The notes under the pieces were generated by a model that saw only the letters and a list, made by a program, of their open reading frames with translations, had not been told where the DNA came from and did no database searches. Source: a virus. Taken from it: DNA of 31,736 nt. The translations under genes were made by a program, and so were the position numbers. Positions 15,863-31,736 of this stretch are shown one piece after another. Location: positions 1 through 31,736 of the IMG/VR virus record IMGVR_UViG_3300022841_000046. The stretch is one strand, 5' to 3'. Position 1 is the first letter of the stretch. Each line of letters starts with the position of its first letter.

Positions 15863-16186
15863 ATGAGCAAGTATTTCAAAATTAATGAAAAAAATATGGA
15901 TGTTGATTTCTTGTCTAAATTAGATCAAGCAAGAGAGCACGCAGGAATACCTTTTATAATTAATTCAGCTTATAGATCTCCAGAGCACCCATTGTCAATA
16001 AAGAACCCAACGTCAAGTCATATTAAGGGTTTAGCAGTAGATATATCTGTTACAGATAGTAGACATAGGTTTTTGATATTAGATGCTTTAATTGCTGTCG
16101 GATTTACTAGAATCGGTATTGCTAATAACTTTATACACGTTGATCTAGATATTGATAAATCTCAAAATGTAATATGGACTTACTAA
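15863..16186 (+). CDS. M15-family peptidase, probable endolysin
   Basis: A 107-residue protein with the zinc ligands of the M15 (D-Ala-D-Ala carboxypeptidase-like) family: H53 in S-S-H-I-K-G-L-A-V-D, D60, and H92 in F-I-H-V-D. The N-terminal part carries I-N-S-A-Y-R-S-P. It probably cuts peptide bonds in host peptidoglycan at lysis. There is no signal peptide, so export would need a holin, and a holin-type gene is 157 bases downstream. The length is typical of single-domain phage enzymes of this class. Confidence 0.8.
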   Translation: MSKYFKINEKNMDVDFLSKLDQAREHAGIPFIINSAYRSPEHPLSIKNPTSSHIKGLAVDISVTDSRHRFLILDALIAVGFTRIGIANNFIHVDLDIDKSQNVIWTY

Positions 16187-16342: not shown

Positions 16343-16834
16343 ATGAGCAATAATCCTAAATTATTAAAAAACGGAGGAAAAGGAACTTTTTTTGGTAACT
16401 TATTCAGAACAGTTAAAGGTGTTGTTGGTGTTGTGTCTCCTGAATTGGTTGCACTTATAGAAACAGCAGAAGGAATAAAAGATGTTGGTCAATTAACAAA
16501 CCTAATATCAAAAGAAAAGGGTTTATCAGAAATTGAAAAAGAATTATTATTTAAACAACTTGAACAAGATGTTATAGAGATGCAGGAAGTTACAAAAAGA
16601 TGGAGCGCAGATATGAACTCAGACAGTTGGTTAAGTAAGAATATAAGACCTTTAAGCCTTGCTTTTTTAACCTTATCACTATTCCTTTATATTATACTTG
16701 ACAGTTCTTTAGAAGGCTTTAAAATAGATAAATCTTGGATTGATTTAATGAGTTCTTTATTGTTGCTTACTTACGGTGGCTACTTTGGTGCAAGAGCACT
16801 TGAAAAGATTACAAGTATAAAGCAGAATAAATAA
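16343..16834 (+). CDS. Holin of the 3TM-type family
   Basis: A 163-residue protein with a long soluble, charged N-terminal half followed by the signature R-W-x-A-D-M-x-S-D-S-W-L-S-K-N-I-R-P-L (about residues 87-103) and two hydrophobic segments (about 103-120 and 132-150). This is the layout of the phage 3TM holin family (PF11351). It would form membrane lesions that release the endolysin. It is the last gene of the rightward late block. Confidence 0.7.
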   Translation: MSNNPKLLKNGGKGTFFGNLFRTVKGVVGVVSPELVALIETAEGIKDVGQLTNLISKEKGLSEIEKELLFKQLEQDVIEMQEVTKRWSADMNSDSWLSKNIRPLSLAFLTLSLFLYIILDSSLEGFKIDKSWIDLMSSLLLLTYGGYFGARALEKITSIKQNK

Positions 16835-17056
16835 AAGGCTCAATATTTAATTTTAATTTAATAAATACATAAGGTAGACTTCCAACAATCTTTTTTGTTT
16901 ATATGTAAATATTATCTTTTGTTAAATAAGGAGCCAATTATAAAAAATCCTTTGTCCAAATTTCAGTTATGGAAGCGTACTATATTACAGGAATTGCACT
17001 GTATTTAACACCCTTTACAATAAACACAACTGCTGATACAGTTTAATATTAAATCA

Positions 17057-17083
17057 TTGGGCCCATAGACCTAATATTTTTTT
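17057..17083 (+). terminator. Probable terminator of the late operon
   Basis: TTGGG (17057-17061) can pair with CCTAA (17070-17074) over an 8-base loop, followed by TA and seven T. The stem is short, with one wobble, so strength is uncertain. Confidence 0.5.
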
Positions 17084-17105
17084 ATCTTCAAGCAAAGAAC
17101 TTATG

Positions 17106-17135
17106 CAAATATACAACTTATTATTAGTATTACAA
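17106..17135 (-). promoter_or_regulatory. Full-consensus minus-strand promoter (TTG-N19-TATATTTG)
   Basis: On the minus strand TTG (plus 17133-17135) is followed after 19 bases by TATATTTG (plus 17106-17113), an exact fit to the Bacteroidota vegetative promoter. It points leftward, away from the 17140 gene, toward the 3' end of the holin gene, and no ORF follows. It may drive an antisense or regulatory RNA. Confidence 0.55.
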
Positions 17136-17139
17136 TACT

Positions 17140-17349
17140 TTATTTATTAAAAAACTGAATAGATGTAAATGTTTCGGGGTAATCTCTGCGCAACACCCTA
17201 GTACCTAACAAGTCTTGTAATTTATGAAAGTTAATTGACCATTCGGTTACCTCCATAGGGTGTGTTCTATTTAACTGCATAAAGTTGTTGTGTGCTTTTA
17301 CAAGCAATTCCATAATTTTTTGTTCTTTATTTGTAAATGGTTTTTTCAT
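17140..17349 (-). CDS. Conserved small protein on the minus strand
   Basis: A 69-residue protein opposite in direction to the late and early operons. It contains K-E-Q-K-I-M-E-L-L-V-K-A-H-N, R-T-H-P-M-E-V-T-E-W and V-L-R-R-D-Y-P-E-T-F, a pattern I recognise from small conserved proteins of Bacteroidota phages and prophages whose role is not known. It is mostly helical, with no membrane segment. It lies beside the early control region, and a GTTAA-type element is found 21 bases upstream of its start, so it may be regulated with the early promoters. Confidence 0.7.
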   Translation of the reverse strand: MKKPFTNKEQKIMELLVKAHNNFMQLNRTHPMEVTEWSINFHKLQDLLGTRVLRRDYPETFTSIQFFNK

Positions 17350-17387: not shown

Positions 17388-17583
17388 TCATAATTAGTCT
17401 CTTAAACAGGCTAATATTTTATTTCTTTTTTTTTGTTAATGTCCTTGAATTTGTTTTTATTTGTAATTCTAATATAATTATTGTGCTAATGTTTCCGTTA
17501 TACTATGTTGTAAATTTACAGGTTTTTTTTTTGGAAATTGCAATATTCATTAACAGATGTTTTTATTTTTATAAACAATGTAA

Positions 17584-17602
17584 TTTGTTAATAGTGTTTA
17601 TA
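17584..17602 (+). repeat. 19-base direct repeat, copy 1
   Basis: TTTGTTAATAGTGTTTATA, identical to 17734-17752. It starts exactly 50 bases before the TATATTTG box at 17634. Within it GTTAATA and GTTTATA form a spaced direct half-site pair. Probably a binding site for a transcription factor. Confidence 0.75.
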
Positions 17603-17633
17603 ATTAAGGTACTTATATTGTAATAATGTATTG

Positions 17634-17641
17634 TATATTTG
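17634..17641 (+). promoter_or_regulatory. Promoter P1, TATATTTG box
   Basis: Perfect TAnnTTTG box with no TTG at the usual upstream distance. The 19-base repeat starts 50 bases upstream. Transcription would start near 17647 and could end at the hairpin near 17707-17737. Confidence 0.6.
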
Positions 17642-17737
17642 ACTGAGGGTTTTTACTCTTAGTATTTAATTAATTGGGGTCGCATCCAAGTAATATTAAA
17701 AAACCAAAAGGAGAATTTAATTATGTTCCTTTTTTTG
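17642..17737 (+). ncRNA. Candidate short RNA from P1
   Basis: Downstream of the TATATTTG box there is no ORF. The segment contains a foldable region (ACTGAGGG with CTCTTAGT, 17642-17663, which may be only partly transcribed), a TTGGGGTCG motif shared with the next unit, and a terminator-like stem AAAAGGA with TCCTTTT before a T run. The layout is a promoter, about 90 transcribed bases and a terminator. Expression is inferred. Confidence 0.35.
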
Positions 17738-17752
17738 TTAATAGTGTTTATA
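17734..17752 (+). repeat. 19-base direct repeat, copy 2
   Basis: Identical to 17584-17602 and again starting exactly 50 bases before a TAnnTTTG box (17784). Conservation of both sequence and spacing argues for a functional upstream promoter element. Confidence 0.75.
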
Positions 17753-17783
17753 GATAATATATTAAACAACCTTATATAATGTG

Positions 17784-17791
17784 TATCTTTG
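17784..17791 (+). promoter_or_regulatory. Promoter P2, TATCTTTG box
   Basis: Perfect TAnnTTTG box without an upstream TTG. It is followed after about 45 bases by a strong terminator. Confidence 0.6.
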
Positions 17792-17795
17792 AGCA

Positions 17796-17861
17796 AGGAG
17801 TGATTATCCTATTTGTCATATTATTGTTTTTGAAGTGGGGTCGAAAGGTCTCACTTTTTTT
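17796..17861 (+). ncRNA. Candidate 65-base RNA from P2
   Basis: Between promoter P2 and the terminator at 17834-17861 lie about 65 bases with no convincing ORF. It shares GTGGGGTCG with the P1 unit. It could be a free small RNA or an attenuated leader of the early operon. A GTG-initiated hydrophobic frame runs through the terminator and was not accepted. Confidence 0.4.
17834..17861 (+). terminator. Intrinsic terminator with GAAA tetraloop
   Basis: AGTGGGGTC pairs with GGTCTCACT (9 bp including three G-T wobbles) around a GAAA loop and is followed by T. It stands 50 bases before the early promoter P3, so it would insulate P3 from upstream transcription. Confidence 0.75.
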
Positions 17862-17874
17862 ATGCAATAATATT

Positions 17875-17891
17875 TTAACATTTCTTTAACA
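17875..17891 (+). promoter_or_regulatory. Two TTAACA sites 11 bases apart upstream of P3
   Basis: TTAACA at 17875-17880 and 17886-17891 is the reverse complement of the TGTTAA sites upstream of the second early promoter. The 11-base step puts the sites on about the same face of the helix. Confidence 0.45.
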
Positions 17892-17912
17892 TTTTAATCT
17901 AAAAAGGTATTG

Positions 17913-17920
17913 TATATTTG
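17913..17920 (+). promoter_or_regulatory. Main early promoter P3, TATATTTG box
   Basis: Perfect TAnnTTTG box preceding the first early gene by 24 bases. The box and leader (ACCATAATCAAAAA and on to ACGATA) recur almost unchanged at 24573-24602 before the second early operon. Confidence 0.7.
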
Positions 17921-17944
17921 TACCATAATCAAAAACAAACGATA

Positions 17945-18115
17945 ATGAAAGATCAATTACAAAAATTACAAGACTACGCTAACTCTTCAAATAACCTATG
18001 GTTAGCAAACGAAATGGAGATATTATGTGTAGAAATTGAAGAAGCTATTTTAGAAGCAGAAATTAAAATATTATACAAAGCACTAAAAGAAAAGCGTAGG
18101 TATGAAAGTAAATGA
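17945..18115 (+). CDS. First early gene, small helical protein
   Basis: A 56-residue acidic, helical protein (M-K-D-Q-L-Q-K-L-Q-D-Y and later E-I-E-E-A-I-L-E-A-E-I-K). The start at 17945 is chosen because an upstream in-frame ATG at 17918 lies inside the promoter box. No family is recognised. First genes of early operons often act on host functions, but nothing here shows this. Confidence 0.65.
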   Translation: MKDQLQKLQDYANSSNNLWLANEMEILCVEIEEAILEAEIKILYKALKEKRRYESK

Positions 18116-18263
18116 AACCGCTTGGAATAACCTAAAAAAGCAAATAGAATTCCACTTAGATCAAGATGCAAATCTAACAGATATAGCAATAAATTATCAA
18201 ATAAAAACACCAGAGTTTGGAACAAGAAACTTTTTAAACCTAGGTGTTGTCATTAACAAATAA
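18102..18263 (+). CDS. Small early protein, unknown
   Basis: A 53-residue ORF overlapping the first early gene by 14 bases. The product starts M-K-V-N-E-T-A-W-N-N-L-K-K-Q and is soluble and mixed in charge. The overlap and early position suggest a real gene; no family is recognised. Confidence 0.55.
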   Translation: MKVNETAWNNLKKQIEFHLDQDANLTDIAINYQIKTPEFGTRNFLNLGVVINK

Positions 18264-18276
18264 ATAACTACATTTA
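18247..18276 (+). promoter_or_regulatory. Promoter with TTG-N19-TACATTTA
   Basis: TTG at 18247-18249, a 19-base spacer and TACATTTA at 18269-18276, 14 bases before the next ATG. The last base departs from TAnnTTTG. Confidence 0.45.
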
Positions 18277-18290
18277 CAAAAACAAATATT

Positions 18291-18490: not shown

Positions 18491-19045
18491 ATGGAAAAAC
18501 TAAACAAAATTCAAGCAGAATTAAAAGCACCAAAAAATCAAAGGAATAACTTTGGTAATTACAATTACAGAAACTGTGGAGATATTTTAGAAGCAGTTAA
18601 ACCAATTTTGTTAAAGTATAATTGCACTTTAACGGTATCAGACGAAATCAAAGAATTAGGAGGTATTTTATTTGTAGAGTCATTTGCTGTCATAGTTGAT
18701 GAAGAAGGCAATACAGTACACGCAAAGGCACAGGCAGGGATTGATCCAAATCGCAAAGGTATGGACATTGCTCAAAGTTTTGGTAGTAGTTCATCTTATT
18801 CAAGAAAGCGTGCCTTAGATGGCTTGTTTTTAATTGACGACACAAAAGATGCTGACAGCACAAATACACACGGTAAAGAAAAAGAACCTGAAAAAAAGAC
18901 AACTTTAGAAGATAACAAGGATTGGCTAAATAAAGGAACTTCGGAGTTTACAAAGGTACAGGCTTATTTAAAAGGAGGTGGTACACTTGCTAATGTAGAG
19001 AAGAAGTATAAGATTTCAAAAGAGGTGAAGGAATTATTAAAATAG
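18491..19045 (+). CDS. ERF-family single-strand annealing protein
   Basis: A 184-residue protein of the ERF recombinase superfamily. It has the family start (L-N-K-I-Q-A-E-L-K-A-P-K), N-Y-N-Y-R-N-C-G-D-I-L-E-A-V-K-P and the typical A-Q-S-F-G-S-S-S-S-Y-S-R-K-R-A-L segment near residues 94-109. The C-terminal third is charged and less conserved. It anneals complementary single strands in phage recombination and probably works with the SSB-like protein encoded next and the RecE-like exonuclease at 22909. Confidence 0.8.
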   Translation: MEKLNKIQAELKAPKNQRNNFGNYNYRNCGDILEAVKPILLKYNCTLTVSDEIKELGGILFVESFAVIVDEEGNTVHAKAQAGIDPNRKGMDIAQSFGSSSSYSRKRALDGLFLIDDTKDADSTNTHGKEKEPEKKTTLEDNKDWLNKGTSEFTKVQAYLKGGGTLANVEKKYKISKEVKELLK

Positions 19046-24483: not shown

Positions 24484-24509
24484 AAGGTGGCAATTAGCCA
24501 CTTTTTTTT
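24484..24509 (+). terminator. Terminator ending the first early operon
   Basis: GTGGC (24487-24491) pairs with GCCAC (24497-24501) across AATTA, extended by A-T pairs and followed by eight T. Clear intrinsic terminator right after the stop at 24481. Confidence 0.85.
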
Positions 24510-24516
24510 GTTTAAA

Positions 24517-24543
24517 TGTTAAAATAATGTTAAATTCTGTTAA
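24517..24543 (+). promoter_or_regulatory. Three TGTTAA sites in helical phase
   Basis: TGTTAA occurs at 24517, 24528 and 24538, spaced 11 and 10 bases, then continues as TGTTAATAGATAGTTTATA, similar to the 19-base repeats at 17584 and 17734. It lies upstream of promoter P5 and looks like a cooperative protein-binding array. Confidence 0.55.
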
Positions 24544-24572
24544 TAGATAGTTTATAAACTAAATAAGAGTTG

Positions 24573-24580
24573 TACATTTA
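24573..24580 (+). promoter_or_regulatory. Second early promoter P5, TACATTTA box
   Basis: TACATTTA departs from TAnnTTTG in the last base. Surrounding bases from TTGTA through ACCATAATCAAAAA to ACGATA repeat the P3 promoter-leader at 17911-17944. It drives the operon beginning at 24603. Confidence 0.6.
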
Positions 24581-26986: not shown

Positions 26987-27355
26987 ATGGAAGCAAAAGA
27001 ATTAAGAATTGGAAATTTTGTAAGTGATAAAATAAATAGATGTATTTCTATTCAAGAGGTTAGGCAAGATCATTATGTATTTACTTTAGCTAATGGAAGT
27101 AAAATAAAGTATCATATAAATTCTGCTAAACCTATACCATTAACAGAAGACTGGTTGTTAAAGTTTGGGTTTAAGTCGGTTAGTCTAGGGGAATATCAAT
27201 TGGGAAGTATTCTTTTAGATAATGAATATACGGATAAAGGTGTTTTTAATATATCGGATGGAGATCATTGTTTATCTTCTAATGTTTTATACGTACACCA
27301 ATTACAAAACTTATACTTTGCATTAAAGCAACAAGAATTACTGTTAACAACTTAG
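26987..27355 (+). CDS. Conserved phage/ICE protein of the MEAKELRIGN type
   Basis: A 122-residue protein. The start at 26987 is chosen because M-E-A-K-E-L-R-I-G-N is the usual N-terminus of a family common in Bacteroidota phages and mobile elements; the ATG at 26945 adds an unrelated hydrophobic lead. P-L-T-E-D-W-L-L-K-F-G-F and Y-V-H-Q-L-Q-N-L-Y-F-A-L are also typical. The function of the family is not known to me. Confidence 0.7.
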   Translation: MEAKELRIGNFVSDKINRCISIQEVRQDHYVFTLANGSKIKYHINSAKPIPLTEDWLLKFGFKSVSLGEYQLGSILLDNEYTDKGVFNISDGDHCLSSNVLYVHQLQNLYFALKQQELLLTT

Positions 27356-27402
27356 TTTTATTTTACTTTTTAGATAGCTTATCTTTATGTAAATAAGTTT
27401 AT

Positions 27403-27870
27403 ATGCTAGAAAAGATTTACAGTTCACACAAGAAATGGATTAACACAGTTTTAAAATTCGGATGCTCGAGAGATGAGGCAGAAGATATAGTTAGTAGTAT
27501 GTATCTTATTATTGGTACAATGCTAAAAAAAGGTTTAAATATTTCTTATGGGGATGACGTAAATTATTACTATATTTATTTGACGTTAAAAACTACATTT
27601 TTACAGATGAAGAACAAGCAAAAGAAAGAAGCAAGAGTGCCAATTGATTTAGTATTAGATTTAGAATCTTCTGAGTATATTGATTTTGATGAGGCAAACG
27701 AAAGAGTACAAGAAGAGTTGCAAACTTTACATTGGTACGATAGAAAAATATACAATTTAGTTCAAGACGAGTACTCAATTACAGAACTATCAAAGAGAAC
27801 CAATATAAGTTATCACAGTATTTACAATACATTTAGAAAAGTTAAACAAAAGCTAAAAGAAAAAATATGA
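27403..27870 (+). CDS. Sigma-70-like (ECF-type) factor
   Basis: A 155-residue protein with a region-2-like start (K-K-W-I-N-T-V-L-K-F-G-C-S-R-D-E-A-E-D-I-V, residues about 10-30) and a C-terminal region-4 helix-turn-helix (Y-S-I-T-E-L-S-K-R-T-N-I-S-Y-H-S-I-Y-N, about 124-142). Region 2 is divergent and the linker is short. It could direct host RNA polymerase to phage late promoters; the repeated GTATTATATAATTA element upstream of late genes is a candidate site. It is encoded just before the late block. Confidence 0.65.
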   Translation: MLEKIYSSHKKWINTVLKFGCSRDEAEDIVSSMYLIIGTMLKKGLNISYGDDVNYYYIYLTLKTTFLQMKNKQKKEARVPIDLVLDLESSEYIDFDEANERVQEELQTLHWYDRKIYNLVQDEYSITELSKRTNISYHSIYNTFRKVKQKLKEKI

Positions 27871-31300: not shown

Positions 31301-31736
31301 TGAAGATAGAAATTAACGTACCAACCTCACTAAGCGAAATTACACTTGGTCAATATCAAAAGTTTTTAAAAATAGCTGAGAACAATCCAGAAGGAAACTT
31401 CTTAGATGCTAAAATGATAGAAATATTCTGCGGCATACCTTTGTCAGAAAGTTACAAGTTAAAGATGTCAAGCGTTCAGGCAATTGTTGATATACTAAAT
31501 GAGTTGTTAGATATAAACCCAGAGCACGTAGAGAGGTTTACTTTGCACGGCACAGAATACGGATTTGTTCCTGACTTAAATGAAATGAGTCTTGGAGAGT
31601 ATATTGATCTTGACAGCAACGCAGGAAAGTGGGAGCAGATGCATCTTGCAATGAACGTCTTATATAGACCAATTCTAAATAGTAAAGCGGGTAAGTACAA
31701 TATTGAAGAATATAATACACAAGGATCTGAGGTATT
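31300..31736 (+). CDS. Tail assembly chaperone, 5' part (cut by contig end)
   Basis: The 5' part of the gene that continues at base 1. M-K-I-E-I-N-V-P-T-S-L-S-E-I-T-L-G-Q-Y-Q-K-F is the N-terminal pattern of Bacteroidota tail-chaperone proteins, followed by F-C-G-I-P-L-S-E and Y-G-F-V-P-D-L-N-E-M. It is open to the end of the window, with 145 codons plus two bases. Bases from 31602 on duplicate bases 1-135, so the gene should be read 31300-31601 then 1-352 (or on to 435 after a -1 shift). Confidence 0.75.
   Translation, partial: MKIEINVPTSLSEITLGQYQKFLKIAENNPEGNFLDAKMIEIFCGIPLSESYKLKMSSVQAIVDILNELLDINPEHVERFTLHGTEYGFVPDLNEMSLGEYIDLDSNAGKWEQMHLAMNVLYRPILNSKAGKYNIEEYNTQGSEV
31602..31736. repeat. 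Right copy of diverged terminal overlap
   Basis: Aligns to bases 1-135 with 11 transitions at third codon positions and no change in protein. See the left copy. Confidence 0.9.

Follow-up and report, generated by a model that had tools for sequence, protein, structure and literature searches.

A predicted small-RNA gene and a doubled upstream promoter element in the early control region of a Bacteroidota phage

Organization of the control region

The window analysed here is the whole 31,736-nucleotide IMG/VR virus record IMGVR_UViG_3300022841_000046. Its ends (2–135 and 31603–31736) share a 134-nt overlap containing about ten mismatches; though classed as linear, the record therefore probably represents an entire genome, circularly permuted and about 31.6 kb long. 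The phage is of the Bacteroidota type, with flavobacteria-type bacteria as the host group; a search of a genome collection for the host returned matches to the ERF protein, all of them unrelated.

The control region lies between the late operon, with its lysis module of an M15 peptidase (15863–16186) and a holin (16343–16834), and the early operon, which includes an ERF annealing protein starting at 18491. The first ORF of the early operon (17945–18115, plus strand) found no relatives in a homologue search. It is preceded on the same strand by the promoter box P3 (TATATTTG, 17913–17920, predicted start ∼17925) and, further upstream, by a conserved element (TTTTAACATTTCTTTAACA, 17873–17891). 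Between the lysis module and P3 are two units, each composed of a 19-mer, a promoter box and a short predicted transcript.

A candidate leftward promoter is also present at 17511–17518 on the minus strand (TAAATTTA, with TGTTAATG at −37), facing an ORF on the same strand (17140–17349). The small protein encoded there matches a PHROG that carries the label DNA ligase, as well as parts of proteins from Vibrio and Clostridioides phages, and no homologue of it was found among the fetched relatives. The AAATTTAC core of this promoter is kept in relatives that lack the ORF, and one further locus (L123) carries TGTTAATA at −37 at the same site. Elsewhere in the window, another promoter (24538–24580) combines a TACATTTA box with TGTTAATA at −35 and GTTTATA at −23; it lies downstream of a terminator-like hairpin (∼24484–24510) and upstream of small genes, and its leader is similar to that of P3.

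Promoter boxes and the upstream element

Both TAnnTTTG boxes described in the earlier note are real: P1 (TATATTTG, 17634–17641) and P2 (TATCTTTG, 17784–17791), both on the plus strand and of the host sigma type. The box alone is not unusual, with 64 matches in the window against 57.8 expected. The housekeeping-sigma box of F. psychrophilum, TAnnTTTG, is located at −12 to −5 from the start (PMC9723704), which places the predicted starts at about 17646 and 17796. The boxes fit the consensus of Bacteroidota housekeeping-sigma promoters (PMC9723704), to which the window adds a further element, TGTTWAYAACT, some 50 nt upstream of the predicted start.

This element is contained in the exact 19-base repeat noted earlier, TTTGTTAATAGTGTTTATA, which occurs at 17584–17602 and 17734–17752 on the plus strand and begins exactly 50 nt before the start of the box in both units, as claimed. 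No third copy is present in the window at up to three mismatches (shuffled sequences gave a mean of 0.09), and the two copies can be extended to 24 nt at 92% identity. Judged by its sequence, the 19-mer is itself two copies, 9 bp apart, of TGTTWAYAACT, situated at about −50 from the predicted start. In the first 19-mer the halves are TGTTAATA at 17586–17593 (−48 from the box) and TGTTTATA at 17595–17602 (−39); in the second they are TGTTAATA at 17736–17743 and TGTTTATA at 17745–17752.

In the phage loci that were fetched, which have 1519 distinct TAnnTTTG boxes, a search upstream of the boxes placed 27 of the 67 occurrences of TGTTWATA within 80 nt at −37 to −39, a peak that is missing from a scrambled control. 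The ACT extension to TGTTWAYAACT emerged in 29 non-redundant sites, the search having used the first eight bases only. When variants of the box were allowed, 58 distinct sites combined element and box, compared with 7–16 in shuffles, and 31 distinct element–box sites were followed by a terminator hairpin 35–100 nt past the box, compared with none in shuffles. Several sequence groups unrelated to one another have this layout of box, element and terminator. The combination TGTTAATAACT...TTGTATATTTG is found in this exact form in unrelated phages too, ahead of protein genes and of a gene for tRNA-Met, indicating that the element is general to these phages rather than specific to the RNA units. 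The tRNA-Met gene follows this promoter immediately, in an unrelated phage contig (L158, 3650–3790).

The element is probably bound by a host activator or an early phage activator. The only IMG/VR match to the 19-mer itself, in a coding region of an unrelated T4-like phage, was taken as chance, and the motif drew nothing beyond chance matches in the literature. No description of TGTTWAYAACT was found in the papers searched, and the promoter class that it marks appears to be new to that literature.

Unit 1

The predicted transcript of unit 1 is about 88 nt in length (17646–17733, plus strand) and is not conserved in the relatives found. A 9-bp inverted repeat (ACTGAGGGT-TTTT-ACTCTTAGT, 17642–17663, plus strand; −10 kcal/mol, z = −5.35) spans its start and is either a 5′ stem-loop of the RNA or an operator. 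The earlier note had placed a terminator-like hairpin at TGGGGTCGCATCCA; however, that hairpin is ordinary (z = −0.49), lacks a T tail and was misplaced. Termination probably occurs instead of at the TGGGGTCG hairpin at a weak structure on the plus strand formed by AAAAGGAGAATTTAATTATGTTCCTTTT and a T run (AAAAGGAG...TTCCTTTTTTT, 17706–17733; −5.3 to −6.6 kcal/mol, z = −1.78).

The two units do share the TGGGGTCG motif, as had been observed, at 17675–17682 and 17836–17843 and nowhere else in the window (0.06 occurrences expected, a significance that is post hoc). It forms part of the terminator stem in unit 2 and has no stable structure in unit 1. The claim that the units are two copies of one transcript is not supported, since their RNA bodies show no detectable similarity (p = 0.11–0.44); significant similarity is confined to the 24-mer and the box and is missing from the spacer between them. 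Unlike unit 2, the unit 1 body does not align with an L018-type relative above the level of shuffled sequences; its hairpins are not kept in relatives, and no relative carrying two units was found. On this sequence evidence, unit 1 is best described as an additional promoter of P2's type that is specific to this lineage, and it probably arose through promoter duplication.

Unit 2 and its relatives

Unit 2 is predicted to encode a small RNA of about 67 nt (17796–17862, plus strand) with a 5′-terminal stem-loop, AGGA-GUGAUUA-UCCU (17796–17810, plus strand; loop UGAUUA), a mostly U-rich linker of variable length and a U-tailed terminator. The terminator hairpin (17832–17860, plus strand) was correctly recognized in the earlier note: it has a GAAA tetraloop, which is also present in close families, a T tail and a folding energy of −10.6 kcal/mol (z = −3.25), and a terminator scan agrees. 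The whole RNA folds only modestly better than shuffled sequences (z = −1.6).

In relatives recruited by means of the early ERF gene, the flanks of the region (17487–17578 and 17866–18288) are both shared, and between them lies a single unit of the same design. Clear homologues of unit 2 are found in at least 12 related contigs (L004, L005, L006, L020, L055, L056, L016, L018, L021, L023, L130 and L134), in one copy and in the same place, and the alignment of the unit 2 body with an L018-type relative lies far above shuffles (0 of 1000). A covariance model built from nine relatives, with the window excluded, returned unit 2 as its top match in the window (32.9 bits, E = 3.7e-4; next match 16.3 bits). 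Other matches of the model, in L116 and L097, are gene-end terminators that follow coding sequence.

The 5′ stem shows two-sided changes at three of its six pairs, and the UGAUUA loop is invariant in the aligned relatives. In this small set of related sequences (seven distinct rows), the covariation score of the stem is 0.508 against 0.289 for shuffles; this value was reached by three of 500 shuffles, and slid controls scored lower. The count of two-sided pairs taken alone is not beyond shuffles (157 of 500). The hairpins of unit 2 are kept in relatives.

Frames of 18 and 36 amino acids exist in the units (with a TAATG overlap and an AGGAG), but as genes they were rejected because neither is present in relatives and no peptide is conserved; the description of the segments as ORF-free is therefore true in effect. 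Unit 2 thus has a conserved predicted promoter, an intrinsic terminator, no conserved frame and a conserved structure, as expected of a small-RNA gene. The proposal of a regulated short transcript at the early control region accordingly stands, on comparative grounds, for a putative unit 2 RNA that is untranslated, terminated and conserved in relatives; unit 1 has only the promoter in common with it.

Searches of Rfam at the gathering threshold gave only chance matches for the window region and none for ten relatives, and no nucleotide-level match to the region was found in phage records. Target predictions gave no convincing base-pairing candidate. Pairing of the UGAUUA loop with AUAAUCA in the P3 leader extends over 7 nt in the window, as it does in several relatives; it is absent from other groups and was rejected. 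The corresponding duplex energies are mostly not significant relative to shuffled RNAs, and the gene start at 17945 ranks 16th of 43 in the comparison of targets.

A sigma-like gene with the same promoter class

The third match to the element–box pattern in the window (27342–27387, plus strand) comprises TGTTAACA at −38 and the box TATCTTTA, and its predicted start lies 11 nt before the ATG of a 155-residue sigma-70-like protein (27403–27870, plus strand). This protein matches Sigma70_r4_2 below the cut-off and a sigma-factor PHROG weakly, and homologues in L077 and L070 exceed the Pfam cut-off for Sigma70_r2. The element also precedes the sigma-like gene at seven other loci (L070, L072, L073, L075, L077, L081 and L124), where the encoded proteins include some that are only 27–30% identical. 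Its recurrence before sigma-like genes across loci is the main evidence for assigning the small RNA to a regulatory set. Since the same element precedes the sigma-like gene in the window, the unit 2 RNA and the sigma-like factor would most likely be co-expressed within one switch controlling infection.

The same position in other phage groups

Phage groups that show little similarity in sequence nevertheless have, in the same place, the element, a box, 41–74 nt, a U-tailed hairpin and P3, usually with a TTTTAACATTTCTTTAACA-like element between hairpin and P3. In distant ERF phages the position is occupied by a gene for an M15-like protein under the same promoter class, and in L068, L074, L076 and others this class is followed by a small protein gene and then by a terminator at the same position. 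Thus, it is the slot that is conserved, with the RNA as one occupant among others. In the cultured Nonlabens phage P12024L, the portal protein of which is 34% identical, the holin is followed by a TTGTATATTTG box and, about 45 nt further on, by a terminator, with no further box before the next gene and hence no P3. In Tenacibaculum phage Larrie (L161; ON950054.1, reverse strand, ∼16700–17180), a long imperfect inverted repeat (GGGTAGACTCC ... GGAGTCTACCC) is found in an unannotated gap.

Interpretation

The reading considered probable here is that the region contains two host-sigma-type promoters, each giving a short untranslated transcript, that unit 2 is a small-RNA gene and that the upstream element is shared with the sigma-like gene. 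It draws on sequence, conservation, covariation, the position of the element and the common promoter class.

The main rival to this reading, which is judged unlikely, is that P1 and P2 are additional promoters of the early operon and that the hairpins are conditional terminators overcome by a phage or host factor, so that the short RNA is merely an aborted leader of the early mRNA. The units do lie directly upstream of the early operon and in the same direction, and P12024L, with its terminator and no further box, could be arranged in this way. A 5′-terminal stem-loop would also suit an RNA acting on its own polymerase, as PMC9378689 describes for the HK022 put RNA, which acts in cis on the transcribing polymerase and suppresses termination; put resembles unit 2 in being a short structured RNA near an early promoter and differs in that unit 2 is directly followed by a terminator and then by P3. 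In the window and most relatives, however, P3 lies with its own conserved element 3′ of the terminator, so the early genes would need no read-through, and the predicted folds show no mutually exclusive antiterminator structure.

It is still less likely that the region serves for insulation only, with the terminator ending the late operon and the promoters being incidental or left from a lost gene, an idea prompted by the M15-peptidase-like gene held in the slot by distant relatives. A terminator does separate the end of the holin from P3 in many relatives, and the loci with a small protein gene between this promoter class and the terminator position would agree with such a loss. Nevertheless, promoter, element and distance are kept in groups without an ORF, and a covarying 5′ stem-loop with an invariant loop is not expected of a useless transcript. 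The same covariation bears on the proposal that the inverted repeat at the start sites serves a repressor as its operator on the DNA, the RNA structure being a by-product, which is regarded as very improbable: the repeat in unit 1 overlaps the predicted start, the classical operator position, but in the relatives of unit 2 the arms change in a compensating manner about a fixed centre, the opposite of the usual operator pattern, and neither a repressor nor an integrase came up among the proteins searched.

Under the small-RNA reading, host polymerase would start at P1, P2, P3 and the promoter of the sigma-like gene. P2 would yield a stable RNA from about 17796 with a protected 5′ end, stopping at the strong intrinsic terminator near 17860, in which the 5′ stem-loop would present UGAUUA and the mostly U-rich linker would be single-stranded; the RNA from P1, unrelated to it and about 88 nt long, would end at a weaker terminator. 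Neither RNA would be translated, and both would be made early, their promoters being of the host sigma type. The unit 2 RNA could act by pairing with a phage or host mRNA or by binding a protein, and its terminator would double as an insulator that keeps late (lysis) transcription from the early operon and P3. The existence and timing of the transcripts, the binding of a protein to the element and a regulatory action of the RNA on a phage or host mRNA or a host protein are inferred from the features observed.

Known phage small RNAs include λ OOP (77 nt), λ PreS (∼88 nt) and P22 sar (68/69 nt), as reviewed in PMC12197685, the text of which nowhere contains 'Bacteroid-' or 'Flavobact-'. The predicted units resemble these RNAs in size, in having their own promoter and a U-tailed terminator and in their place in a phage control region, and differ in their Bacteroidota-type promoter and in matching no Rfam family. 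A further difference is that OOP and sar are each antisense to a gene of their phage, while the units in the window have no conserved ORF on the other strand; a search of the strand opposite 17584–17862 found no ORF of at least 60 amino acids, only frames of 15–21.

A wider proposal, regarded as doubtful, is a circuit common to Bacteroidota phages in which promoters with TGTTWAYAACT at −50 co-express the small RNA and a sigma-like factor; in it, the RNA would either tune the switch from early to late expression or silence some function of the host. The papers searched contained no description of a small RNA from Bacteroidota phages. Unit 2 would represent a new RNA family of a known kind, the phage small-RNA gene, with coordinates in more than ten contigs. 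Both the sea and the gut are rich in Bacteroidota phages, and because a defined RNA family is now accompanied by a fixed-spacing element shared with a sigma-like gene, their transcription programme becomes directly testable.
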